Shown in pieces: positions 1 through 55,859 of a stretch of DNA of 64,000 nucleotides (positions within the stretch are counted from its first letter, which is position 1; each line of letters starts with the position of its first letter). The position numbers and the translations under genes were made by a program. Source of the DNA: Massilia atriviolacea (GTDB lineage: Bacteria > Pseudomonadota > Gammaproteobacteria > Burkholderiales > Burkholderiaceae_D); assembly GCF_003953935.1 (NCBI RefSeq), contig NZ_RXLQ01000001.1, forward strand, positions 222,121-286,120, in the 5' to 3' direction. The notes beneath the pieces are model-generated. The model searched no databases. It saw only the letters and a program-made list of their open reading frames with translations, and was not told the DNA's origin.

Positions 1-1
1 T

Positions 2-2530
2 AAGCAGCGCCTGCGCGACGTGCCGCAGGGCGACCCCGATATCGATCCGGAAGAATCGGTGGCCCTGTGGGTGATCGGCCTGCTGATCGGCCTGTTTACG
101 GGCGGACTGGCCGGCGGCGTGATCGCCCTCATCATTCTGGCCATCGTGCAGGCGGTAATCAGCAATGTGGCGCAGGCGGTCGGCGGCTCGCTCGTCACCG
201 ACGAGATCAGCGGCAAGGTCATCGGGCTGGGAGGCTGGCCCGAGCGGCTCTCGCGCATCGGCTTCGTCAGCACCCGCTTCAATAACCCGGTGCTGGTGGA
301 CACCAGCGGCTTGCTGATCGCCGGCACGGTCGAGGTGATCAGTTCCTGCGAAAACACCGCGATCGCCTTTGCCGACAGCGGCGGCAGCTACAGCGCATCG
401 GCGGCGGCGGCGCTGGTCATGACGGCGCGCCGCACCCACCCGGACGCCGCCTACAGCTGGTTGCCGGGCGACGGCAGCCCGCTGCGGCTGGCGCGCGATA
501 TCAGCCACAGCTACACGGCAAGCGGCATGTATGTCGCCAAGCACAGCCTGCTGATGCAGCAGCCGGGCGGGGTGCTGACGCGCCACTTCGCCGCCGTCAA
601 CGTGCGCAACGTGGCGCCCACCGTCGACGCCGGCCCCGACATCACGGTCAAGGAAGGCGAACTGGTGACCCTGGTCGGGCGCTTCCGCGACGTCGAATAC
701 CTGGACACCCACGAAACCTCGTGGAGCTTCGGCGACCACCAGGCGCCGCAGCCGGGCACGGTCAGCGCATCGCACCTGCCGCCGCAAGCGGTGGGCACCT
801 CCACCGTCACCCACGCCTGGTGCGACAACGGCAAGTTTACGGTCACCTTCACCGTGCGCGACCAGAACGGCGGCATCGCCCAGGACACCCTGTCGGTGAC
901 GGTGCTGAACGTCGCGCCGGTTGTCGACGCCGGCCCCGACCTGTACGCCTACCTGTGCACGCCGATCCTGCTGACGGCCCGCTTCAAGGACCCCGGCTGG
1001 TGCGACACGCACACGGCGCGCTGGGATTTCGGCGATTGCAGTCCCGCGCTGAGCGCGATCGTGGTCGAGACGAATGCGCCGCCAGCGGGCCTGGGCACGG
1101 CCAGCGCCGCCCATATCTATGCCTGCTGCGGCGCGTTCGAGGCGGTCGCCACGGTCACCGACGATGACGGCGCGGCCGGCAGCGACCGGGTCCGGGTTGA
1201 AGTGACCGCGATCGCCAATCCCGGCTTCGAACAGGGCTTCAGGACGATAGGGACGAACAAGGTCGGCAACGCCTGGACGCCCTACACGGCGCCATCGCGC
1301 TACGCCGCTGCGATGACCGGCGCCCGTGTTGCGAGCGGGCCGGCCGAGTACGACTGCGAGCAATGCGTGGTGCACGGCGGCCAGCGCGCGCAGCGCATCG
1401 TCCCGGCGCCGCGCACCCGTGCCGGCCTGTACCAGCGGCTGGGCGCGAATCCGCGCTGGACCTACCAGGTCAGCGTGTTCGCCTTCCTCGAACCGGGCGT
1501 GACGGCCTGGCTCGGGCTCGACCCGGACGGCGGCGCCGATCCGCTGGCGGCGGCGATCCGCTGGGTTCCGGCGCATGCGGCCGACGCCTGGGTAAGCCTG
1601 TGCACCAGCGTGGTGGCGGCGGCCGGGCCGCAGCGCGCGGTCACGGTGTTCATCGATGTCGAATCCGAACGTCCGCGCGCTGCCGGCTATCTCGACGACG
1701 TCGCGTTCGTCGCGATGCAGGACCTGTGCCCGGCGCCGCCGACGACGCCACCCGGGCGCGAACGGCTGTGCGTCGACTTCGCGCGCATCCAGCCCGGCCG
1801 GGTGCAGTCGCTGCTGGTCAAGGGCATGCAGTTCTTGCCGGGGGCGGGCAGCGGGATTGTCCAGCTGGGCATCGCGGCCGGCCAGACCGCCCTGGTGCTG
1901 ACCCCGGCGGGCGTGCTGGTGCGCTTCCCGTACCCGGCCTCGCGCGTCGTCGCGCGGCTGATCGGCTTCGGCGGCAAGCCGGCGCAGATGAAGGGCTTGC
2001 ACCCTGACGGCAGCGCGGCCGGCAGCATCGATGCCACATCTTCCACCGGCGCGATCACCGTCGAATTGACGGGAAGCGCGCTGGCCGGCGTGCAGCTGAT
2101 CGCGCAAGAGGCCATGCTGATCGACATCTGTATCGAACGCGACATACAAGCGGGGCAGGGAGGCGGCGCCCCGCGCGAGGAGAGGACCATGAGCGACAAC
2201 CCGCACCCGAAGATCGACCCGGCGCTGCATCCGCTGCCCGGGCAAGAAAGCGAGCTGGTCGATGTAATCGTCAGTATCGCCAACCCCGCCATCGCGCAGG
2301 GCGGCCCGGCCATCGGCCAGGCCGGCCTGGCGGCGCAGGCGCAGGCGCGCTTCGAGGCGGCGGCCGCGCCCTTGCTGGCGCGCCTTGCGGCACTCGGGGC
2401 CGAGCGCGTGCGTCCGCTCTGGATCGCGAATGCCGTGGCGGCGCGCCTGCCGCGCGCGGCGCTGGAGCAACTGGCGGCCGAGGACCTCGTCACGCGCATC
2501 GCGCGCGATGCCGAGCAAAAGCTGATTTGA
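2..2530 (+). CDS. PKD-domain / jelly-roll surface-type protein, 5' partial
   Basis: The frame is open to the left window edge, so the GTG at 20 may be internal and the true N-terminus lost. Counting from that Val, residues 14-56 form a Gly-rich hydrophobic stretch that could be one or two membrane helices. Three PKD-like domains follow: about 135-197 (WLPGDGS), 199-298 (VDAGPD, WSFGD) and 299-395 (VDAGPD, WDFGD). Then comes a NPGFEQGF-type jelly-roll resembling CBM4/9 modules (about 398-575), a further beta-rich domain (590-715), and a C-terminal segment (724-836) resembling a subtilisin I9 prodomain that may be translated separately. PKD and CBM-like domains usually mediate adhesion or ligand binding on exported proteins. 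The subtilase gene starts 18 nt downstream, suggesting one operon. The role of the whole protein is unknown. Confidence 0.75.
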   Translation, partial: KQRLRDVPQGDPDIDPEESVALWVIGLLIGLFTGGLAGGVIALIILAIVQAVISNVAQAVGGSLVTDEISGKVIGLGGWPERLSRIGFVSTRFNNPVLVDTSGLLIAGTVEVISSCENTAIAFADSGGSYSASAAAALVMTARRTHPDAAYSWLPGDGSPLRLARDISHSYTASGMYVAKHSLLMQQPGGVLTRHFAAVNVRNVAPTVDAGPDITVKEGELVTLVGRFRDVEYLDTHETSWSFGDHQAPQPGTVSASHLPPQAVGTSTVTHAWCDNGKFTVTFTVRDQNGGIAQDTLSVTVLNVAPVVDAGPDLYAYLCTPILLTARFKDPGWCDTHTARWDFGDCSPALSAIVVETNAPPAGLGTASAAHIYACCGAFEAVATVTDDDGAAGSDRVRVEVTAIANPGFEQGFRTIGTNKVGNAWTPYTAPSRYAAAMTGARVASGPAEYDCEQCVVHGGQRAQRIVPAPRTRAGLYQRLGANPRWTYQVSVFAFLEPGVTAWLGLDPDGGADPLAAAIRWVPAHAADAWVSLCTSVVAAAGPQRAVTVFIDVESERPRAAGYLDDVAFVAMQDLCPAPPTTPPGRERLCVDFARIQPGRVQSLLVKGMQFLPGAGSGIVQLGIAAGQTALVLTPAGVLVRFPYPASRVVARLIGFGGKPAQMKGLHPDGSAAGSIDATSSTGAITVELTGSALAGVQLIAQEAMLIDICIERDIQAGQGGGAPREERTMSDNPHPKIDPALHPLPGQESELVDVIVSIANPAIAQGGPAIGQAGLAAQAQARFEAAAAPLLARLAALGAERVRPLWIANAVAARLPRAALEQLAAEDLVTRIARDAEQKLI
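2189..2530 (+). CDS. Possible stand-alone I9-type propeptide/inhibitor from an in-frame internal start
   Basis: An ATG at 2189 lies in frame within the PKD-protein ORF and is preceded by a strong purine-rich ribosome site (GAGGAGAGG at 2177-2185). The 113-residue product has an I9-prodomain look: a VDVIVSI strand, an alanine-rich helix, then RVRPLWIANAVAARLP and a final VTRIARD strand. I9 domains are intramolecular chaperones and inhibitors of subtilisins, and an S8 subtilase follows after 18 nt. No stop codon separates it from the PKD protein, so it may be made both as a fusion tail and as a free protein. The resemblance is by eye; the domain may instead exist only as the C-terminal module of the larger protein. 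Confidence 0.45.
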   Translation: MSDNPHPKIDPALHPLPGQESELVDVIVSIANPAIAQGGPAIGQAGLAAQAQARFEAAAAPLLARLAALGAERVRPLWIANAVAARLPRAALEQLAAEDLVTRIARDAEQKLI

Positions 2531-2548
2531 CGACAAGGAGAGCAGTCG

Positions 2549-3970
2549 ATGGATACCGAAATCAAAGGCAAGCCGGAGGATGTCAGCCATCGCGTGTACC
2601 GGCGCTTCAAGGAGCGCGACCGCGAGCGCAAGGCCGCCTTGCGCCAGGCCTATGACAGCGACATTGTCGCCAAGCTGGACCGCGTGACCGAGCGCGACCT
2701 CGGCCTGGCGCTGCGCGAACGGGCGCTGAGCCGGCTGTGGCACGCGAGTGCGCCGCCCGCGCGCCGCTACAAGGTCATCGTGACCATGCGCCAGGCGGCG
2801 CCGGGCAGCGCGCCGCAGGCGGCGCCCGGCTCGCGCGCCAGCCTGCTCAAGGCCAGCCTGATACGGCGCAGCGGACTGCGCGCGCTCGAACGCTTGCGCC
2901 CGGCCCTGGAGCGGTGCGAGGGCGTGAGCGTGCGCCGCGTGCTGTGGCTGACCCGCAGCCTGGCGCTCGACGCCGATGGCGCCACCGTGGTCGAGCTGGC
3001 GCAGCGGGCCGACGTGGTCGGCGTGGCGCACGATAAACCGATGATCGCGATCGCGCTCGACGCCAGCCGCCCCCTGATCCGCGCCGACCAGGTCGAAAAC
3101 ACCCTCGGCATCGCCGGCGGCGGGGTGCGCGTGGGCGTGCTCGACTCCGGGGTCGACTTCACCCACCCGGCGCTGGCGCCGGTCATGGGCAGCCAGTTCG
3201 ACTTCACCGGCACCGGCGTGGGCGACCTGCTCGGGCATGGCACCCATTGCGCCGGCGTGGTGGCCAGCACCGACGGCACGCGGCGCGGCGTGGCCCCGCG
3301 CGCCCTGGTGAGCGACTACAAGATCCTCGACGCCAACGGTTCCGGCAACGCCAGCAACTGTATCGCGGGGATGCAGCAGTCGGTCACGGACGGCATCGCC
3401 GTGAGCAGCAACAGCTGGGGATTCAGCCATCGGAACGGGCTCTGGACCTGTGCCGACGGCAGCTGCGTGCTGTGCACGGCCGCCAACGCCGCCGTCGCCG
3501 CCGGCCAGATCGTGGTCGTCGCCGCCGGCAACGAGAACAACGACAGCTGCGACACCTACGACACGCATATCCGCTGCCCCGGCCACGCCACCGATGCGAT
3601 CACGGTCGGCGGCAGCGACAAGAGCGACGGCCTGTACGGCAGCTCGAGCATCGGGCCGGCCGCCGACGGCCGCGCCAAGCCGGACCTGGTCGCGCCCGGC
3701 GTCGACATTGTCTCGGCGCGCTCCTCGATCGGCAGCGACATGGGCGGCGCGGCGCCGGTGGTCGACGAGATCTGGTCCCAGGCCAGCGGCACCAGCATGT
3801 CGACCCCGCATGTCAGCGGGGTGGCGGCGTTAATGCTTGAGCGCAATCCCAACCTGACCCCGGCCCAGGTCAAGGCCGTTCTCATGGACACCGCGGTCGC
3901 CATCGGCGGCACCGCCGACGAAGCGGGCGCCGGCCGGGTCGACGCCTTCGCCGCCGTCAGCGCCGTATAA
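2549..3970 (+). CDS. S8 subtilisin-like serine peptidase
   Basis: A 473-residue subtilase with the full catalytic set: Asp199 in VLDSGVDF, His230 in GHGTHCAG, oxyanion Asn328 in AAGNEN and Ser416 in SGTSMSTPH. Residues about 70-165 (beginning RYKVIVTMRQ) look like an I9-type prodomain, so this protein may carry its own propeptide in addition to the one encoded just upstream. The N-terminus is highly charged with no signal peptide visible, so if exported it uses another route. Several extra Cys residues flank the active-site region (CADGSCVLC). Start ATG has AAGGAGAGC upstream. It sits between the PKD protein (18 nt) and the SCP2-like gene (25 nt). Likely role: maturing or degrading a partner protein of the operon (inference). 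Confidence 0.9.
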   Translation: MDTEIKGKPEDVSHRVYRRFKERDRERKAALRQAYDSDIVAKLDRVTERDLGLALRERALSRLWHASAPPARRYKVIVTMRQAAPGSAPQAAPGSRASLLKASLIRRSGLRALERLRPALERCEGVSVRRVLWLTRSLALDADGATVVELAQRADVVGVAHDKPMIAIALDASRPLIRADQVENTLGIAGGGVRVGVLDSGVDFTHPALAPVMGSQFDFTGTGVGDLLGHGTHCAGVVASTDGTRRGVAPRALVSDYKILDANGSGNASNCIAGMQQSVTDGIAVSSNSWGFSHRNGLWTCADGSCVLCTAANAAVAAGQIVVVAAGNENNDSCDTYDTHIRCPGHATDAITVGGSDKSDGLYGSSSIGPAADGRAKPDLVAPGVDIVSARSSIGSDMGGAAPVVDEIWSQASGTSMSTPHVSGVAALMLERNPNLTPAQVKAVLMDTAVAIGGTADEAGAGRVDAFAAVSAV

Positions 3971-3995
3971 ATCACGCCATCACAGGAGAAACATC

Positions 3996-4472
3996 ATGGA
4001 TGAGAACTGGTTGAAACAGACACCCGAAGGTCAGTGCCAACTGGCCGATATCGCGCGCCGCGCGCTGGCCGCGTTCCGCAACGATTCCCAGGAAGCCTAT
4101 GCGCAGCTGGTCAGGGAGTACGACAACAGCAGCGCCGTGATCGGCATCTTCGGGCTCGGTTCGGTGATCCTGACGGTCAGCGGCGGCGAAGCGGCGATTG
4201 CCGAGCGCGCCCCGGACAAGCCTGCCCGGCTGGTCGGGCGCGCGGCGCTCTACCCGGAAACCATCCTGGCGCTGTCCGAGGGCCGCATGACGCCGATCGA
4301 AGCCTTTCACTCGGGCGACCTGGTGGTGCGCGCCGAATCCGACGACCTGCACCGCGCCTACGGCCTGATGGTCAAGTACACCGATACCGCGCTGCGTTCG
4401 CAACAGCTGCAATCGGTGCTCAAGGAGTTTCGCGCGCTGAGCCTGTCCGCCACCGGCGGCGCGCACGGCTGA
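3996..4472 (+). CDS. SCP2-like lipid-binding protein
   Basis: A 158-residue protein without signal peptide or membrane segment. The C-terminal half (ARLVGRAALYPETILAL, then a SGDLVVRAESDDLHRAY segment) resembles the SCP2 sterol-carrier fold, in which a hydrophobic tunnel binds lipids or isoprenoids. It begins after an AGGAG site and ends 2 nt before the start of the polyprenyl synthase, implying translational coupling. In that context a carrier for a prenyl product is a reasonable guess. The family assignment is by pattern only and a generic alpha/beta protein cannot be excluded. Confidence 0.6.
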   Translation: MDENWLKQTPEGQCQLADIARRALAAFRNDSQEAYAQLVREYDNSSAVIGIFGLGSVILTVSGGEAAIAERAPDKPARLVGRAALYPETILALSEGRMTPIEAFHSGDLVVRAESDDLHRAYGLMVKYTDTALRSQQLQSVLKEFRALSLSATGGAHG

Positions 4473-4474
4473 CC

Positions 4475-5458
4475 GTGGCGGCCCCTGCCAGCTGGCTGGC
4501 CTGCGACGCCGTCGGCGCCGATCTCGCGCGCCTGGGGCCCCTGCTGATGGGGTGCGCCGGCGGCGACGATCCGCGCATGGCGGCACTGACCCGCCACCTG
4601 CTGGCCGGTGGCGGCAAGCGCCTGCGCCCGGCCTTGCTGCTGCTGGCGCGCGGCGACGCGCTGGCCGCGCGGCCGGCCGACGCCACCGCGCTGGACGCCG
4701 CCGCCGCCGTCGAGCTGATCCACGTGGCCTCGCTCTACCACGACGACGTCATGGACCGCAGCCCGACCCGGCGCGGCGCCGCCAGCGCCCACAGCCGCTG
4801 GGGCAATGGCGCGGCCGCGCTGGCCGGCACCTGGCTGTTCGCCCGCGCCCAGCAATTGCTGCGTCCGGCCGGACCGGCTGCGGCGCCGGCGGCGGCGCGC
4901 ACCGCCGCCGCCCTGTGCGCCGGACAATTGCGCGAGGCGGAGAACGCCTATAACCTGGAGCTGGGCGTGGACGAGCACCTGACCATCCTGCACGACAAGA
5001 CCGCCACCCTGTTCATGCTGGCCGCCGAACTCGGCGCCACCCTGGGCGGACGCAGCGCGCCCGAATGCGCGGCGCTGGCCTCGTATGCGGCCAGCCTGGG
5101 GCTGGCGTTCCAGCTGGCCGACGACCTGCTCGACTGGACCGGCGCCGCCGCCACGCTGGGCAAGGCCACCGGCGCCGACCTGCGCGGCGGCGTCTACAAC
5201 CTGCCGCTGCTGACGGCGCTGGCCGCCCCAGGCAGCGAGGCCCAGGCCCTGCGCCTGATCCTGCACAAGCGCGCGCCCGACGAGGCCGACCTGGCCAGGG
5301 TACAGGCGATCGTGCTGGCAAGCGGCGTGGCCCCGGTGCGGCGCCGGGCCGCCGCGCTGGCGGCGCAAGCCGGCGCCGCGCTGGGCGCACTGGCGCAGGG
5401 ACCGGTGCGCAGTTCGCTGGCCGCGCTGGCGGCGCTGTCCGTGGCGCGCCAGGCATGA
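4475..5458 (+). CDS. Polyprenyl diphosphate synthase (IspA/IspB family)
   Basis: A 327-residue trans-prenyltransferase that condenses isopentenyl diphosphate with an allylic diphosphate. It shows GGKRLRP near the N-terminus, the first Asp-rich motif HDDVMD (Asp90, Asp91, Asp94) and the second DDLLD (216-220), so it should be active. The residues before the first motif are small (A-S-L-Y-H), as in medium/long-chain synthases, suggesting a product longer than FPP; this is inference. The GTG at 4475 is chosen because it follows the upstream stop by 2 nt and begins just before the conserved fold; a longer frame reaches back into the SCP2-like gene but is a shadow. The stop overlaps the next ATG (ATGA). 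Confidence 0.88.
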   Translation: MAAPASWLACDAVGADLARLGPLLMGCAGGDDPRMAALTRHLLAGGGKRLRPALLLLARGDALAARPADATALDAAAAVELIHVASLYHDDVMDRSPTRRGAASAHSRWGNGAAALAGTWLFARAQQLLRPAGPAAAPAAARTAAALCAGQLREAENAYNLELGVDEHLTILHDKTATLFMLAAELGATLGGRSAPECAALASYAASLGLAFQLADDLLDWTGAAATLGKATGADLRGGVYNLPLLTALAAPGSEAQALRLILHKRAPDEADLARVQAIVLASGVAPVRRRAAALAAQAGAALGALAQGPVRSSLAALAALSVARQA

Positions 5459-7638
5459 CGGCCGCGCTCTTCGCCACGTCCGGCTGGGACGCCATCGTGG
5501 TCGGCGCCGGCCCGGCCGGCAGCGCCTGCGCCTGGCACCTGGCGCGCGCCGGGCGCCGCGTGCTGCTGCTGGAGCGCCACCACTTCCCGCGCGACAAGAG
5601 CTGCGGCGACGGACTGACCCCGCGCTGCCTCGAACTGCTCGACGAGATGGGCGTGCTGGCCCAACTGGACGGATACGGGCGCATCGCGCGCGTGCGCGTG
5701 GTGCATCGCGGTCCGCCGCTGCGGCAGCGCGATTTTGGCTACGACGGGGTCCCCGGCCGTTACGACTACGGGCTGGTGGTGCCGCGCATGCGGCTCGACC
5801 AGCTGGTGTGCCAGGCCGCCGTCGCGGCCGGCGCCGTGCTGGCCGAAGGCATCCAGGTGCGGGAACTGGTGCGCGAGGCGGGGCGGGCGCTGGGCGTACT
5901 GGTCGACTGCGAACACGGGCCGCGCGCGCTGCGCCTCGATGCCGAGGTGGTGGTCGCGGCGGACGGCGCCAATTCGCGCCTGGCCGCCGGCATGGGACTC
6001 GGCGGACAGGCGGGCCAGCTCGGCTTTGCCTTGCGCGGCTACTGCGAGGGCCTGCGCGGCCTCGATCCCTGCCAGGAAATCCACCTGCCGCTGGCCGACG
6101 CCAGCGGCGACTACCTGCTGCCCGCCTACGGCTGGATTTTTCCGACAAGCGCCACCAGCGCCAATGTCGGCGTCGGCATCATGGGCCGCACTCCGCTCGA
6201 CGACGTGCGCCGCCTGTCGACCCGCTTCTGGGCCACGCTGCGCGCCAGCGACCCGCGCTTTGCCGATGCCCGCGACAGCGCGCCCCTGCTGGGGGCGCCG
6301 CTGCGCTTCGATTTCGCGCCCGAGCGCTGCGCCGCGCCCGGCCTGCTGCTGGTCGGCGACGCCGCCGGGCTCACCAGCCCCTTCACGGGCGAGGGCATCA
6401 GCTACGGCCTCGAATCGGGACGGCTGGCCGCGCGCACCATCGATCGCGCACTGCGCGCCGCGCCGCGCCGGCCGGACGTCGAAGACGATTACCGCATGTT
6501 GATGGCGCACCACTTCGCCGGCTACTTCGAACTCGGGCGGCACTCGGCGCGCCGCCATCTGCTGTTCTGGAAGGTGCTCGACAGCAGTTTCGACAGCGAA
6601 CGTCCCCTGTTCGGACTGCTGCGCCGCGCCGCCTTGCTGCCCGAGGGAGCGGGTAGCGGCGCCGGCGACAGCGCGCTGATGGACGACCTGGGCCCGGTGG
6701 TGGGACGCGGCGACCCGCTGCTGCGCCGCCAGCTGATCGATATCGGCGCGGCGCTGGTGGCGGTGGTGCGGCGCGACTGGCCCTTCCTCGGCCGCCTCGA
6801 CAGCGCGCGCGGCGCTGCGCGCGGGATCGTGTTCCGGCCCTCGCTGCTGATGCTGCTGGCGGCCCGCTTCGGCGCGGCCGACGCGCGGCCCTTGCGGCGC
6901 CTGGGCGTGGCGCTCGACCTGGCCTACCTCGGCTTGATGGCCCAGTCCGGCGTCGAGGAAGACCTGTCCGGGGCGCGCGATAACTGGAGCAACAAATTTG
7001 CCCTGCTGCTCGGCGACTTCCTGTTCTCGCATGCGCTGTGCCAGGCCGATCCGGACGACGCGATCCACGCCGACGCCATCATGGGCGCGCTCGAAACAAG
7101 TTGCCGGGGCTGCCTGGCCCAGTTGTCCACCGCCGGGCGCGTCGACCTGTCTCCCGACGTGGCCCGGTCGCAGCTGGCCGACCGCATCGCGCCGCTGTTC
7201 ATCCTGCCCTTGACGATGGGGGCGGCGGTTGCCGGCGCGGCGCCCGGCGTGGCGCAGGCGCTGGGCGAGTATGGCCGCGCACTGGGCCTGTTGTTCGCCT
7301 GCGGCGAAGAGATGCTCGCCTTTACCGAGCGTGCGCCGCAGGCCATGGCGGTGCTGGCCAGCGACCTGACCCGCCGCGTGGCCGGCCTGCCGCTGCTGTA
7401 TGCCGCAAGCTGCCAGCCGGCTCCCGTGCAGGCCGCCCTGAATGCCGATCCGCCGGACCGCGCCGTGCTGGCGGCACTGGTTGCGCTGCCGGCGGTGCGG
7501 GCGGCCATGGCCGGGGAGATGGCGCGCCATGCGCAGGACGCCGGGGCCGCGCTGCGGCGCCTGCCCGCAGCATCGGCGGCGGCCCCGCTGCATGCGCTGC
7601 TGCGCCATGGCCTGGAGCGCTGGCGCGACACCGCGTAG
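5455..7638 (+). CDS. Geranylgeranyl reductase-type flavoenzyme fused to a degenerate polyprenyl-synthase domain
   Basis: A 727-residue fusion. Residues 1-430 are a group-A flavoprotein of the geranylgeranyl reductase family: FAD-binding VVGAGPAGSA (15-24), CGDGLTPRC near residue 45, and GDAAGLTSPFTGEGI starting about residue 301. These enzymes reduce prenyl double bonds. Residues about 440-727 align by eye with the adjacent prenyl synthase: RPSLLMLLAARFGA with RPALLLLARGDA, GDFLFSHALC with GTWLFARAQQ, and DRIAPLF...LGLLFACGEEMLAF with DKTATLF...LGLAFQLADDLLDW. In this copy the first Asp-rich motif reads AQSGVEED and the second EEMLA, so prenyl transfer is probably lost. Its ATG overlaps the synthase stop, so the two products are made together and may form a hetero-oligomer. 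The longer frame starting at 5065 is a shadow. Confidence 0.85.
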   Translation: MTAALFATSGWDAIVVGAGPAGSACAWHLARAGRRVLLLERHHFPRDKSCGDGLTPRCLELLDEMGVLAQLDGYGRIARVRVVHRGPPLRQRDFGYDGVPGRYDYGLVVPRMRLDQLVCQAAVAAGAVLAEGIQVRELVREAGRALGVLVDCEHGPRALRLDAEVVVAADGANSRLAAGMGLGGQAGQLGFALRGYCEGLRGLDPCQEIHLPLADASGDYLLPAYGWIFPTSATSANVGVGIMGRTPLDDVRRLSTRFWATLRASDPRFADARDSAPLLGAPLRFDFAPERCAAPGLLLVGDAAGLTSPFTGEGISYGLESGRLAARTIDRALRAAPRRPDVEDDYRMLMAHHFAGYFELGRHSARRHLLFWKVLDSSFDSERPLFGLLRRAALLPEGAGSGAGDSALMDDLGPVVGRGDPLLRRQLIDIGAALVAVVRRDWPFLGRLDSARGAARGIVFRPSLLMLLAARFGAADARPLRRLGVALDLAYLGLMAQSGVEEDLSGARDNWSNKFALLLGDFLFSHALCQADPDDAIHADAIMGALETSCRGCLAQLSTAGRVDLSPDVARSQLADRIAPLFILPLTMGAAVAGAAPGVAQALGEYGRALGLLFACGEEMLAFTERAPQAMAVLASDLTRRVAGLPLLYAASCQPAPVQAALNADPPDRAVLAALVALPAVRAAMAGEMARHAQDAGAALRRLPAASAAAPLHALLRHGLERWRDTA

Positions 7639-7698
7639 GGAGTTGACGCGACGGAGCGCGGCGGCGATGATGGCGTTTTTCGAACGGATTATTGCCTC

Positions 7699-8148
7699 AT
7701 GACGGACAGCGCGACAGCGCCGATCAAGATCAGCCACCAGCCGCCCAGGCACGGCTGGATGGCCGTGACGCTGAGCGTCGGCGCGCAGGTGGTGGAGATC
7801 GATGCGTCGGATGTGCCGAACAACCCGGTCGCCGACCTGCTCGAGGCGATCGACCTGGCTGCCCACGGCACGCCGTCACGGGTGTGGTGGCACCTGGAAC
7901 CGGACGGCTACTTCATGTACTTCACGCCGCAGGGCGGCGCGGTCCACTTCCGCATCGACTTCGCTCACGACAGCGACGCTGCGCGGGCGCAGACGGTGGC
8001 GCAGGCGAGCGGCAGCCGCGCGCAGGTGCTGCTGCCGTTCTGGCGCTTCGTACGCAAGGTCCAGTCGCTCGCGTATGCGCAGCCGCACTGGCCGCCGGCC
8101 GGTTTCGAACGCATCGAGGTCGTCAAGGCCAGGATCAAGCAGGGGTGA
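7699..8148 (+). CDS. Hypothetical protein, 149 aa
   Basis: I do not recognise this protein. It has 149 residues, no signal peptide and no membrane segment. Visible features are a WWHLEPDGYFMYF aromatic stretch, alternating beta-type segments and a basic C-terminus (VVKARIKQG). It begins with ATG 60 nt after the flavoenzyme stop, so it could be the last gene of that operon or stand alone. Its stop TGA (8146-8148) directly abuts the stop of the convergent gene, with no spacing. Composition matches the neighbourhood. Confidence 0.6.
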   Translation: MTDSATAPIKISHQPPRHGWMAVTLSVGAQVVEIDASDVPNNPVADLLEAIDLAAHGTPSRVWWHLEPDGYFMYFTPQGGAVHFRIDFAHDSDAARAQTVAQASGSRAQVLLPFWRFVRKVQSLAYAQPHWPPAGFERIEVVKARIKQG

Positions 8149-10521
8149 TCAGGCCAGCGCCATCCAGTGCTCTCCCTTGGCATAGGCCAGCAGCCGGCGC
8201 GCGCCGCCGGAAAGGCTGGCGCGCTCGTCGAGCGAATGGCCGGCCGCCGCCAGTGCCAGTCCGGCCAGCGCGGGGGCGAGGCGCTGCTGCAAGCGGGGCG
8301 ACGCCTGCGCCAGGTGCGCCTGGTCCCATGCGATGAACTGCGCCTGCGATGCGGCCGGCGTCATCGACAGGAAGAACATCATCTGGCGCCAGGCGTAAGC
8401 GGCGTGCCTGATCGCGCGCAGATTGCCCGGCCACGTGTCGAGCGCGTTCTGCTGGTTCGCGCACATCCACGCGAAGCACTGCTGCGCCATGCGCTCGTAG
8501 TGCGGCCGCAGTTCGCCGTCCAGATCGAGCCTGGCCACCAGGGCCGCCAGGTTGTGCGTGGTGAGGATCTGCTGCTGCTCGATAATCATGGCGTTGTCGC
8601 GCACCGAGCCGTAGCCGCAGCGCACGCCCGCGCGCGCTTCGCACAGGGCGGTCAGGCTGCGCACACCCGGCTGCGCGCCGTCCTTGGCGACGCGCTCGCG
8701 CGCCAGTTCGCGCAACTGCTCGCGCACGGCGGCATCGATGCCGTAATAGCGGCTGTACAGGCTGTCGTCCAGCATGCTTGTCGCGTGCGCCGCGACAAGG
8801 GTGAATTTGTGCGCGAATACCCCCATGAAAATATCGGCCGCCAGTTCCTCGGCCAGCGGCAGGTCCAGCCCCGCGTTGCCGGCCAGGGTGCCCAGTTCGT
8901 TAATCAGCGGATTGGGAATGGCCGTCTGCGGGAACGAGGTCAGTGCCAGCAGCGCGAGTTCGTCGAGCGTGCGGCGCGCCAGCGCGCGCGGCGCCAGTCC
9001 TTGCTGGCGTTGGGCATTGACTGCGGCAACCCATGGCAATTCACCGATGCGCACCTGGCTTTCCAGGTTTTGCAGCAGCAGCGAGCGGCGGCGCCGGAAA
9101 GCGTGGTACAGCGCGCCGTACAACTGCTTGAGCGAGGGCTCGGCCAGCGCGGCGCCGTTGATCGCGGCGCTCAATTGCGGCAGCACTTCGGCCAGCACTT
9201 CGGCCGAGGCGATGACGCCGCGCTCGACCAGCACGGACACCGTCTCGATGCCGCAGCGATCGAGCTTGTCCAGCAGGACGGCGGGAATCGGCGTGCCGGC
9301 GGCTTCGCCGAGGCTGTCCGCCTCGGCGGCACTGAGCGGTGCGCCGAATTTCGCCGGGTCTTCCAGTCCGCCGTCCTGCGCACTGGCACCCAGGCGTTCG
9401 GCCAGGACGCCGGCCAGCAAATGGTAGGGTGTGGCCTCGACCTGCCTGGCCTGTTCGCTGCGCAGCGCAGCCAGTTGCGCCGATCCCGGCAAGCCGCGCT
9501 TGCTGACGTAGCGCCCCAGGATCAGGCGGATGCGGCCGACGTCGCGTCCGATCAGCAGCGCCGGTTCGGTGACGCACAGGTGCAGGTAGCCGAGCAGCTC
9601 CGCCAGGCAATCGCCCTTGCGGGCGGAGGCGGCGCGGGCCTCCGGTTCGTGCAGCAGGGCTTGCGCCCGTCGGCGCCAGTCGGCGGGGTAGCAGCGGCAC
9701 GGCCAGCCGCCGGCGATGCGGAACTTGCCGCTGGCGCTGTCGCGCCATGCGCCGTCGTCGCCGATGTCGATGAACGGTGCTTCGCCGTCGACGCTATCGA
9801 GGAACAGCTGCACCACGCGGTCGTACAGCGGCAGGCGCACGCGCACGGCGGCGCGCTGCGCCAGGATGCGCAGATTGGTGGCGCGAGCGCGTTTTTGCAG
9901 TGCGGCCACCACCTCACGCACCGGCGCGAGGAATACCTGTTCGCCGTAGCGGCGCGGCTGCGCGGCCGGCCGCGGATAGAAGCGCAGGCGGGCGAACCAC
10001 GGCGCGATCGCGTCCAGCACCTCGCGCGCCTGCTCAGGCTTGCCGTGCCGGGTCAGCCAGGCAACGACCAGCAGGGCGCCTTCTTCCGGCGCGTCGATCT
10101 CGTAGCAGCCCGCGTCGAGCAGGGCGTACAGGCTGGCCAGTCCTTCCTCGCTCAGCAGGCGCGCGTTGAGCCAGCTGCGCGCGTCCGGCGCCGGCGCGAT
10201 GCCGGCCGTGGCGAGGGTGCGCAGTTCGTGTTCGAGCAAAGGGCCGCCGGCCTTGAAGTCGCCGGTGGCGAAGCCGCCCTTGGCGACATCGGGCGTGACC
10301 CAGGCCGGCACGCCGGAGAGCGGGGTGCGCGAACCGACCTCGATCGCGCCGGTGAACATGCCGGCCATGAGCTGTTCCCACCGCTGCGCCTTGACGGCGG
10401 CGCGGGCGCGCACCTGCGGGTCGGGATGGTCGCCGACGGCGCGCAGGGCGGCAGCCAGTTGAAGCGTCGCATAGCCGGGCGCAATCCGGATCCGGCCGAT
10501 GCCGGCGTCGTCGTTATCCAC
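8149..10521 (-). CDS. Large hypothetical protein, about 790 aa
   Basis: I do not recognise a family. The protein is predicted soluble and mostly helical, with no signal peptide. Conserved-looking stretches include the C-terminal IIEQQQILTTHNLAALV and the Trp-rich CFAWMCANQQNALDTW followed by AYAWRQMMFFLSM. The frame extends upstream to 10575, but that would overlap the tRNA gene, so a start at GTG 10521 (VDNDDAGIG...) is preferred; ATT or other nearby codons remain possible. The gene begins 25 nt downstream of the tRNA on the same strand and could be read from the same promoter. Length and coding character support a real gene; the function is unknown. Confidence 0.7.
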   Translation of the reverse strand: MDNDDAGIGRIRIAPGYATLQLAAALRAVGDHPDPQVRARAAVKAQRWEQLMAGMFTGAIEVGSRTPLSGVPAWVTPDVAKGGFATGDFKAGGPLLEHELRTLATAGIAPAPDARSWLNARLLSEEGLASLYALLDAGCYEIDAPEEGALLVVAWLTRHGKPEQAREVLDAIAPWFARLRFYPRPAAQPRRYGEQVFLAPVREVVAALQKRARATNLRILAQRAAVRVRLPLYDRVVQLFLDSVDGEAPFIDIGDDGAWRDSASGKFRIAGGWPCRCYPADWRRRAQALLHEPEARAASARKGDCLAELLGYLHLCVTEPALLIGRDVGRIRLILGRYVSKRGLPGSAQLAALRSEQARQVEATPYHLLAGVLAERLGASAQDGGLEDPAKFGAPLSAAEADSLGEAAGTPIPAVLLDKLDRCGIETVSVLVERGVIASAEVLAEVLPQLSAAINGAALAEPSLKQLYGALYHAFRRRRSLLLQNLESQVRIGELPWVAAVNAQRQQGLAPRALARRTLDELALLALTSFPQTAIPNPLINELGTLAGNAGLDLPLAEELAADIFMGVFAHKFTLVAAHATSMLDDSLYSRYYGIDAAVREQLRELARERVAKDGAQPGVRSLTALCEARAGVRCGYGSVRDNAMIIEQQQILTTHNLAALVARLDLDGELRPHYERMAQQCFAWMCANQQNALDTWPGNLRAIRHAAYAWRQMMFFLSMTPAASQAQFIAWDQAHLAQASPRLQQRLAPALAGLALAAAGHSLDERASLSGGARRLLAYAKGEHWMALA

Positions 10522-10545
10522 GTGGTATCCAATGACAAGCAGTGT

Positions 10546-10620
10546 TGGGTCCGGAAGCTGGAATCGAACCAGCACCTGCTCAGACCGGAGCCAAGCGCTC
10601 TACCATTGAGCTATTCCGGA
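10546..10620 (-). tRNA. tRNA-Arg (anticodon CCG), atypical
   Basis: The reverse strand folds as a complete cloverleaf: acceptor TCCGGAA/TTCCGGA, D-arm GCTC-AATGGTA-GAGC, anticodon arm CTTGG-CTCCGGT-CTGAG, five-base variable loop CAGGT, T-arm GCTGG-TTCGATT-CCAGC, then C plus an encoded CCA. The anticodon CCG reads the Arg codon CGG. Odd points are a C at discriminator position 73, no A at position 20 (an arginine identity base in E. coli), two adjacent G-T pairs in the anticodon stem, and T38. The D-arm resembles Gly/Trp tRNAs. Positions 10546-10549 include the CCA end. Confidence 0.78.
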
Positions 10621-14572: not shown

Positions 14573-15502
14573 CCGTATCCACCCCGGTGCAAGTTTGACA
14601 TTCGGACTCGACCTCATCCGAGATATGCCATCTGACATTGTCCAGGCCGGGTCCACCCCGGTGTCAGGTCTGACATTCGGACACGACCTCATCCGAGATA
14701 TGCCATCTGACATTGTCCAGGCCGTGTCCACCCCGGTGTCAGGTCTGACATTCGGACACGACCTCATCCGAGATATGCCATCTGACATTGTCGAGGCCGT
14801 GTCTGATTGTCAGACCTGGCACCGGACTGGACACGACCTCATCAACGAAACGCCATTGGATATTGTCCAGGTCGTGTCCACCCTGGTGTCAGGTCTGAAA
14901 TTCGGACACGACCTCATCCGAGATATGCCATCTGACATTGTCGAGGCCGTGTCCGATTGTCAGACCTGGCACCGGACTGGACACGACCTCATCAACGAAA
15001 CGCCATTGGATATTGTCCAGGTCGTGTCCACCCTGGTGTCAGGTCTGAAATTCGGACACGACCTCATCCGAGATATGCCATCTGACATTGTCGAGGCCGT
15101 GTCCGATTGTCAGACCTGGCACCGGACTGGACACGACCTCATCAACGAAACGCCATTGGATATTGTCCAGGTCGTGTCCACCCTGGTGTCAGGTCTGAAA
15201 TTCGGACACGACCTCATCCGAGATATGCCATCTGACATTGTCGAGGCCGTGTCTGATTGTCAGACCTGGCACCGGACTGGACACGACCTCATCAACGAAA
15301 CGCCATTGGATATTGTCCAGGTCGTGTCTGATTGTCAGACCTGGCACCGGGGTGGACACGACCTCATCCGAGATAGGCGATGTAACGTTGTCCAGTCCGT
15401 GTCCGATTGTCAGACCTGGCACCGCAGTGGACAAGCTCAGCCTTAAGTTGTTAGCACTGTCCAGTCCGTGTCCGATTGTCAGACCTGGCACCGCAGTGGA
15501 CA
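14573..15502. repeat. REP/BIME-like array: 36-nt palindromic module in both orientations, 75-bp period
   Basis: Thirteen copies of a 36-nt module bounded by GTGTCC and GGACAC, with an inner GTCAG-GT-CTGAC palindrome in copies reading one way. Copies start at 14573 (degenerate), 14649, 14724, 14799, 14874, 14949, 15024, 15099, 15174, 15249, 15324, 15399 and 15468. Orientation goes forward for the first three, then alternates, then stays reversed at the end. Linkers of 39 nt come in two types, beginning GACCTCATCCGAGATATGCC or GACCTCATCAACGAAACGCC. The middle of the array is three nearly identical 150-bp units, a sign of recent tandem expansion. The 75-bp period is 25 codons, which keeps reading frames open on both strands, but no gene is credible here. 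Confidence 0.92.
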
Positions 15503-54472: not shown

Positions 54473-54565
54473 AATGTCTCCTGAGGCTAAAAAATAGTAG
54501 CCGCAGGATAAAAGAATCAGCCCAGAAAAGACAGCGAAAAATTGTGCATATATCCTCACGAACAA

Positions 54566-54815
54566 TGTCCACTGCGGTGACAGGCACCGAAGTGGACACG
54601 GGCTGGACCGGTGAAAAATGTCCACTGCGGTGACAGGCACCGGGGTGGACACGGGCTGGACCGGTGAAAAATGTCCACTGCGGTGACAGGCACCGAAGTG
54701 GACACGGGCTGGACCGGTGGAAAATGTCCACTGCGGTGACAGGCACCGGGGTGGACACGGGCTGGACCGGTGAAAAATGTCCACTGCGGTGACAGGCACC
54801 GGGGTGGACACGGGC
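54566..54815. repeat. 53-bp tandem array (4.7 copies), related to the 36-nt module
   Basis: Copies begin at 54566, 54619, 54672, 54725 and 54778. Each holds a palindrome-bounded module (TGTCCACTGCGGTGAC...CACC, then AAGTGGACAC or GGGTGGACAC) and a spacer GGGCTGGACCGGTGAAAAA. Copies 1 and 3 have AA and copies 2, 4 and 5 have GG at the variable site. The last copy ends exactly where the stop codon of the diguanylate cyclase gene (54816-54818) begins. Ends GTGTCCAC/GTGGACA tie it to the module of the other array. Confidence 0.93.
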
Positions 54816-55859
54816 TCAGGAGAGGTTCATGGCAACCGGACTGTCCGGACGGGCGCCGGGGATGTGCTCGGGCTCGCTGGCCGGCAGGCTGATCCTGTTG
54901 CGGCCCATGTGCTTGGCGCGGTACAAGGCGGCGTCCGCCGTCGCCACCAGCTGGCACGCCGTCGTGTCGGACGAGGCGATCGCGGTGGCCGCGCCGATGC
55001 TGACCGTCACGTGCTCGTCGGCGCCGCGCCCGTTCGGCACCGCGAGCCGCTCGACCCGGCGCCGGATCCGCTCGGCCACGATGGCCGCCCCCTTGAGCGA
55101 CTGGTTCGGCAGAATCACCGCGAATTCCTCGCCACCATAGCGCGCCACCAGGTCGTTCGCCCGCATTTCGCTCGCCACGGCAGTGGCGATGCGCTTGAGG
55201 CATTCGTCGCCTCCCAGGTGCCCGTTGGCGTCGTTGTATGCCTTGAAATTGTCGACATCGACCATCAGCAAGGACAGCGGCTGTTGCTGGCGCAAGGCAC
55301 GCGACCACTCGGCGCCCAGCGTCGTATCGAAACAGCGCCGGTTGGCCAGCCCGGTCAGGCCGTCGAGCGTGGCCAGCTGCTCCAGCGCGACCTGGGCCGC
55401 TTTCTCGTCGGTAATGTCGCGCAGGGTCTGGACTACCGCTTCGAGTTTGCCGTGCTCGTCCAGGATCGGGATGGCATCGGTCGCCAGGTAACGGCGCTGC
55501 CCGCCGCGCGGCATGTCGCACCAGCTTTCCGCCACCAGCTGTCCTGCCACATGGCTGCTTCTGGCCGCCTGCGGATACAGCGAATCGAGCTCGTCGCCAC
55601 GGTCCTGTGCCACCAGATCGGCCAGGGTCGGCCGCGCCTCCCGGTAGAAACTGCGCCAGTGGTCGCGCGTGCCCAGCACTTCCTCGGCCGCCACCCCGGT
55701 CAGGCGCTCGCAGGCGCGGTTCCAGATGATGACCCGGCGCTCCTTGTCCAGCACAAAGGCGGGCACGGCCAGCATTTCCATGAGCTTGTAGGCAAACGCA
55801 CGCCCGTGCTCGGGTACGGCTTGCGCCCTTGCGCTCTGGACCTTCATGGTGCTCATCAT
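54816..55859 (-). CDS. PAS-GGDEF diguanylate cyclase
   Basis: A 347-residue soluble protein. A PAS domain (about 22-155: MEMLAVPAFVLDKERRVIIWN, ERLTGVAAEEVLG) is followed by a GGDEF domain with the active signature GGEEF (RYGGEEFAV) and DVDNFKAYND metal/GTP site. No inhibitory-site RxxD is obvious next to it. It should make c-di-GMP in response to a PAS signal. Two Met codons at the start (55859, 55856) follow AGGGGCAG. The repeat array begins directly at the stop. The kinase gene upstream is on the same strand, 131 nt away. Confidence 0.9.
   Translation of the reverse strand: MMSTMKVQSARAQAVPEHGRAFAYKLMEMLAVPAFVLDKERRVIIWNRACERLTGVAAEEVLGTRDHWRSFYREARPTLADLVAQDRGDELDSLYPQAARSSHVAGQLVAESWCDMPRGGQRRYLATDAIPILDEHGKLEAVVQTLRDITDEKAAQVALEQLATLDGLTGLANRRCFDTTLGAEWSRALRQQQPLSLLMVDVDNFKAYNDANGHLGGDECLKRIATAVASEMRANDLVARYGGEEFAVILPNQSLKGAAIVAERIRRRVERLAVPNGRGADEHVTVSIGAATAIASSDTTACQLVATADAALYRAKHMGRNRISLPASEPEHIPGARPDSPVAMNLS

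Follow-up and report, generated by a model that had tools for sequence, protein, structure and literature searches.

How an S8 subtilase and enzymes of isoprenoid synthesis come to share a single run of genes is the question raised by the first part of a 64,000-nucleotide stretch of the Massilia atriviolacea genome (G000:C1:222121-286120; hereafter the window). Along the plus strand there is the C-terminal part of a PKD protein (2..2530), followed by the 473-aa subtilase (2549..3970), a 158-aa protein that is SCP2-like by motif only and has no Pfam match (3996..4472), an active-type trans-polyprenyl diphosphate synthase of 327 aa with a GTG start (4475..5458), and a 727-aa fusion of a GGR-type enzyme to a degenerate polyprenyl synthase (5455..7638). 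That these five genes lie on the same strand with spacings of 18, 25, 2 and -4 nt, as the original prediction had it, is borne out by their positions, and such tight spacing is consistent with one operon and with the single transcript that it considered probable; the unusual mix of genes, to which it also drew attention, is upheld.

Inspection of the sequence left of position 1, likewise recommended, places the ATG of the PKD gene at L009:4617, i.e. at window -1504 and outside the window, for a whole protein of 1344 aa. The first 8 nt of the PKD gene are shared with the end of an upstream 204-aa gene (window -2111 to -1497; L009:4010-4624), which makes the operon one of six genes and not five. 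A promoter scan found no sigma-70-like site ahead of the operon, and one such site between the fusion gene and the 149-aa gene that comes after it. The explanation favored here, to which an even chance of being right may be given, is that of a horizontally acquired accessory operon in which a subtilase and a separate inhibitor domain resembling a pro-region are combined with an isoprenoid assembly line.

A counterpart in another phylum

When 72,556 plasmid records were searched by tblastn with the fusion protein, one was matched at at least 80% coverage, pRB98 of Rhodococcus oxybenzonivorans, and the 158-aa protein matches this record and no other. Its genes, on one strand and with gaps of ~20 nt or overlaps, are in the order 108-aa protein, S8 peptidase, 150-aa protein, polyprenyl synthase and GGR fusion. 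Identities to the window are 39% for the S8 protein, 37% for the small protein, 44% for the synthase and 42% for the fusion, and the 108-aa protein aligns with the C-terminal 105 residues of the PKD protein (35% identity). Homologues of these genes thus do occur together elsewhere, a point on which the original prediction had left itself open to refutation. With four genes and the tail domain identically ordered in another phylum, the arrangement is, to judge by these comparisons, more than a chance order. A protease-inhibitor pair lying by accident next to an unrelated lipid unit might be supposed since, to our knowledge, no pathway joins the two and literature searches returned no description of such a pairing, but the keeping of order and of short gaps or overlaps at 37-44% identity in two phyla makes mere neighborhood very improbable.

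In a tblastn comparison of the PKD and 204-aa proteins with the pRB98 locus, the only match was that of the tail. Because of this the core is best taken to comprise the inhibitor-like domain, the S8 protein, the small protein, the synthase and the fusion, with the PKD and 204-aa proteins being local additions. The PKD protein had been placed at the center of the system, a role rejected here as the Rhodococcus locus holds only the homologue of its tail, in the form of the 108-aa gene, and for the same reason its use or sensing of the lipid, as originally suggested, cannot be the general function.

The search for further copies was less productive. Matches to the fusion were present in 11 of 145 family genomes (E<=1e-20) and in 3 of 398 phylum genomes (E<=1e-30, the best two candidates per genome being scored), and in these same searches it is full-length in the own genome only, the other Pseudomonadota matches ending by residue 374. 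Other Oxalobacteraceae had been recommended as a place to look for the gene order; among the 145 genomes of the same family, the own one is alone in having the full-length fusion. The 158-aa profile matched in 1 of 17 genus, 1 of 398 phylum and 2 of 399 order genomes (the second order-level match, in G789, spans 59 positions at 2.1e-4), the tail profile in 1 of 329 phylum genomes, the PKD N-terminus in 1 of 145 and the 204-aa protein in 1 of 136 family genomes, these genome sets being overlapping ones. A search of genome contigs for more copies yielded a single weak match, 41 residues long, in Vibrio. The fusion was not found in phage records, and neither it nor the 158-aa protein was found by peptide patterns in viral contigs. 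A subtilase search, with matches in 356 plasmid records, is too general to be of use, and among six subtilase plasmid neighborhoods the module is present only in pRB98, those of Tolypothrix, Cupriavidus and three Streptomyces (these three judged by annotation only) being without it. Two copies, in Massilia and on pRB98, are what these comparisons make known, and their small number counts against the favored explanation. Separately, on a Streptomyces canus plasmid (L056:3281-8214) a polyprenyl synthetase gene lies ~0.9 kb downstream of an S8 peptidase gene, both being on one strand with a minus-strand gene in between; a GGR fusion is not annotated in the stretch shown.

The insertion site and probable mobility

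The six cassette genes occupy ~10.15 kb between two flanking neighbors, with an edge precision of ~20 nt. From a left edge at approximately window -2455 (L009:3666), which brings in the 204-aa gene, the plus-strand cassette extends into the window as 1..7697. Just to its left are genes for an HD/AAA_33 protein (L009:2520-3668) and an RNA ligase (PF09414, L008:13552-14520), and it is an RNA-repair-like locus that the cassette interrupts. To its right and outside it are the 149-aa gene (7699..8148, plus strand) and the gene for an 808-aa protein (8149-10575) without a Pfam family at E<=1. The 808-aa gene is present in 6 of 17 genus genomes, the own genome included, and in all five of the congeners that have it the insert is missing from the same site. 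In three of these (L038, L039 and L040) the HD/AAA gene, 91.6-92.3% identical, directly abuts the 149-aa gene with stop and start overlapping, as read from the sequences; in L041 and L042 it is followed by the 808-aa gene with no 149-aa gene. By tblastn, the five congener regions contain no match to any of the six cassette proteins. The 149-aa gene, a candidate for the last gene of the operon, was rejected as such given that it is part of the flanking locus in congeners.

With gene order common to two phyla and the insert absent from congeners, this looks like a module that has moved horizontally. No recombinase match was found in Pfam among the six genes, no tRNA at the insert edges (the sole one in L008 and L009 being at L009:16667), no Rfam match inside the insert and, among the matches listed, no repeat pair at both edges. 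At 0.71 the GC content of the cassette differs from that of its neighbors (0.67-0.68) by too little to argue from. The pRB98 module has transposase genes within ~5 kb.

An accessory character and rarity, as from the genus and phylum counts for the 158-aa profile, a clean insert here and a plasmid location near transposase genes in Rhodococcus are also what a conflict or defense module would display. Its protease, as effector or activator, would be restrained by the inhibitor and set free on the action of a phage or rival, with the reduced lipid and the PKD protein acting at the membrane. Subtilases do occur in the defense library searched (PDLC03014 subtilase, 9.5e-44), but this match looks family-wide and the other five cassette proteins have no match there at E<=0.01. 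IetAS and other subtilase defense systems resemble the cassette in having an S8 protease in an accessory locus; unlike with IetAS, the match to IetS is a weak one at family level (1.3e-10), and an IetA-type ATPase partner is absent among the six cassette proteins. Together with the negative phage and viral searches for the fusion, this renders a defense role rather unlikely.

Synthase, reductase and the fused domain

The match of the 327-aa protein to PF00348 is strong (8.9e-57, 192.6 bits vs a cut-off of 27), and GGKRLRP, DDVMD (FARM), RRG and DDLLD (SARM) are retained, with both DDxxD motifs intact. The identity of the residue five before the first aspartate motif serves as a chain-length rule. 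Here it is Ala, a small residue, as in own_C54a, which we take to be of the octaprenyl type, while own_C54b, presumably of the farnesyl type, has Tyr; the likeness to own_C54a is suggestive of a medium-length or long chain.

In the fusion, the GGR-type flavoprotein corresponds to approximately residues 1-400 and the degenerate polyprenyl synthase to approximately 406-727. The GGR half exceeds the cut-off for TIGR02032 (194.3 bits vs 158.8) and is under those for MenJ (165.6 of 700) and BchP-ChlP (106.3 of 343.3). The pairing of a prenyl synthase with a GGR enzyme, as originally proposed, is supported, PF00348 and TIGR02032 both being over their cut-offs. A YxWxFP motif and an active-site Cys are named as family features in PMC12004948. 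The window copy has YGWIFP and the CGD cysteine; the Rhodococcus GGR has FGWIHY where YxWxFP is expected, and this counts against the favored explanation. MenJ, ChlP and archaeal GGR (TIGR02032, NF045655) share with the window copy the flavin fold, YxWxFP and the CG cysteine, and differ from it in that here there is a fused domain and a cassette without quinone or chlorophyll genes.

The C-terminal part of the fusion matches PF00348 at 3.9e-9 (36.5 bits, cut-off 27; 74.7 for the Rhodococcus copy). In both copies the first aspartate motif, GGK and RRG are lost, and the second aspartate motif is EEMLA in the window (lost) and DEVLD in Rhodococcus (partly kept). The GGR-synthase fusion that had been predicted is there insofar as a synthase-like domain is fused to the reductase; with its aspartate, GGK and RRG motifs gone, that half does not resemble a functional synthase. 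A midpoint-rooted tree of 7 synthase-domain rows, in which branches are long, groups the two fused domains at 100/99 and the two synthases at 85/85, and with the fused domains forming one group the fusion most likely predates the divergence of the two copies.

Genes for active-type and degenerate synthases are adjacent, as a heteromeric prenyl synthase would require. Human PDSS1/PDSS2 is one heteromeric trans-prenyl diphosphate synthase. In others, Micrococcus HexA/HexB and Bacillus HepS/HepT, one subunit is active and carries both aspartate motifs and works together with a second, the organization proposed here, and in PMC7839719 HexA is thought to determine chain length for HexB. A difference is that the degenerate partner is here covalently joined to a GGR-type reductase, the pairing itself being a prediction. 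In plants, according to PMC9863795, rice OsGRP, a GGPPS small subunit, with OsGGPPS1 recruits geranylgeranyl reductase, and contact with GGR was not found for tobacco SSU II. OsGRP, as there described, provides a likeness in that a synthase is recruited to a reductase by one of its relatives that is regarded as non-catalytic; the plant complex is non-covalent and for chlorophyll, and what is seen here is a fusion of bacterial genes within an accessory operon. With HexA/HexB and OsGRP as models, the degenerate domain is predicted to be a non-catalytic partner of the neighboring active synthase, tethered to the reductase. It would associate with the active synthase in the manner of heteromeric enzymes, medium- or long-chain prenyl diphosphate would be handed to the tethered flavin reductase, and a polyprenyl product saturated in part or in full would result. 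We infer, then, a synthase/fusion complex that makes a saturated medium- or long-chain polyprenyl lipid. If correct, the covalent tethering of a non-catalytic synthase relative to an isoprenoid reductase would amount to a synthase-reductase channel already in place. We know of a channel of such design only as the non-covalent plant complex.

Such enzyme content is equally what a specialised-metabolite or lipid-tailoring cluster would have, with synthase, reductase and carrier making a saturated terpenoid and the protease only maturing a cluster protein, be it the PKD protein or its own partner; a GGR homologue performs C-24 reduction in a bacterial sterol cluster (PMC12004948). This is a possibility of the minor sort, as no cyclase or other tailoring gene was recognised in either copy and, in Rhodococcus, protease and tail are retained without a PKD protein. 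Each enzyme is of a known kind, and what looks to be undescribed is the fused degenerate synthase and reductase in the company of a subtilase and an inhibitor-like domain, neither the module nor such family combinations being found among the literature matches listed, in which subscription journals are thinly covered.

The subtilase and the inhibitor-like tail

The subtilase matches PF00082 at 2.3e-50 (172 bits, cut-off 21.8), has a pro-region at approximately residues 60-172, and in both copies the triad D199/H230/S416 and N328 are conserved. Common to both are also C306, C309, C334 and C343, which are absent from all five other aligned subtilases (picked from the 356 plasmid records with matches) and constitute a possible metal or redox site. 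Its score with the T7SS mycosin model TIGR03921 (112.8) is below the cut-off of 278.75.

The tail of the PKD protein, a 113-aa domain (2189..2530, plus strand) with the 108-aa Rhodococcus protein as counterpart, has an in-frame ATG that is preceded by a strong Shine-Dalgarno-like sequence. The energy of the latter, -8.4, is stronger than for any of the six gene starts (best -8.0), but 4 of 48 in-frame internal ATGs, that of the tail included, are equally strong, and this ATG is a candidate start only. In hhalign the tail and the subtilase pro-region give an E of 0.0028 at a probability of only 10.9%. For four pairs of tail and pro-region, 0, 11, 42 and 91 of 2000 shuffles reached the score, the best pair being the two from Rhodococcus (0/2000) and the weakest the window tail with the Rhodococcus pro-region (91/2000). 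Pfam has no I9 match to the tail at E<=10, a pro-domain chain is not among its PDB matches, and a low-confidence single-sequence model (pLDDT 58) is all-helical, unlike a subtilisin pro-domain. The inhibitor-like tail of the original prediction gains from being a free gene in Rhodococcus and from having some similarity to the subtilase's own pro-region, and a role as subtilase inhibitor is plausible. The subtilase may be held as a zymogen and/or be inhibited in trans by this domain. Plasmodium SUB1-ProM (PMC6993865) is similarly a free pro-domain-like protein coded beside subtilase genes; by comparison the present tail is a putative inhibitor without a sequence family match and, in the window, is the end of a 1344-aa protein. 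The presence in two phyla of a protease and inhibitor-like partner alongside the lipid enzymes suggests an undescribed lipid-protease system.

The PKD and 158-aa proteins

The order in the PKD protein is an N-terminal 520 aa, a hydrophobic stretch of ~45 aa (residues 520-564), PKD repeats (PKD_4 match, 7.2e-29), a further region and the inhibitor-like tail. No Pfam family was found for residues 1-561 and 875-1161, and no signal peptide was seen by eye in the PKD protein, the tail or the S8 protein. In the own genome the inhibitor-like domain is joined to a protein whose hydrophobic stretch is possibly membrane-spanning, and in Rhodococcus it is free; protease control in the own genome could thus be envelope-tied.

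For the 158-aa protein the label of SCP2-like lipid binder is weakly supported. No Pfam match was found at E<=1, and with PF02036 (SCP2) at E<=10 two other loci in the whole genome match and its gene does not. Three SCP2-type chains (E 1.3-1.8) are among the 6 PDB matches listed, the two best being chance-like ones to reovirus sigma-1 (0.0084 and 0.02). In four pairings with own SCP2 proteins, 26, 373, 920 and 1008 of 2000 shuffles reached the score, the hhalign E of 0.18 is off the motif, and the model (pLDDT 52) is too weak to use. An SCP2-like lipid binder is still plausible as a lead, and in the favored explanation this protein would bind or carry the lipid. A bolder version has that lipid, from synthase, degenerate synthase and reductase, act via the carrier to control a Cys-rich subtilase held by a trans-acting inhibitor, built here into a membrane-linked PKD effector; a phylum-crossing, lipid-coupled protease switch of this kind is improbable.

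Other loci

The own genome has another isoprenoid locus (L043, G000:C16:13000-31000, at 4707-9332) that encodes IspH (LytB), a 229-aa protein without a Pfam family and a polyprenyl synthase, with a GGR-type reductase on the other strand. Look-alikes of its IspH and 229-aa genes are in G125 (L044), with synthase and reductase matches beside them (L018). Next to the L043 reductase is a RebB-type gene (L043:9547-9822; PF11747, 'Killing trait'), RebB being linked to R-bodies. Elsewhere in the window, 14573-15502 is a lower-GC tandem array of ~12 copies of a 75-nt unit, with a 150-nt higher-order unit (90% matches) and an ORF encoding a repeated peptide, and at 54560-54816 a 53-nt tandem repeat (4.8 copies, 95% matches) lies where a long minus-strand ORF begins.
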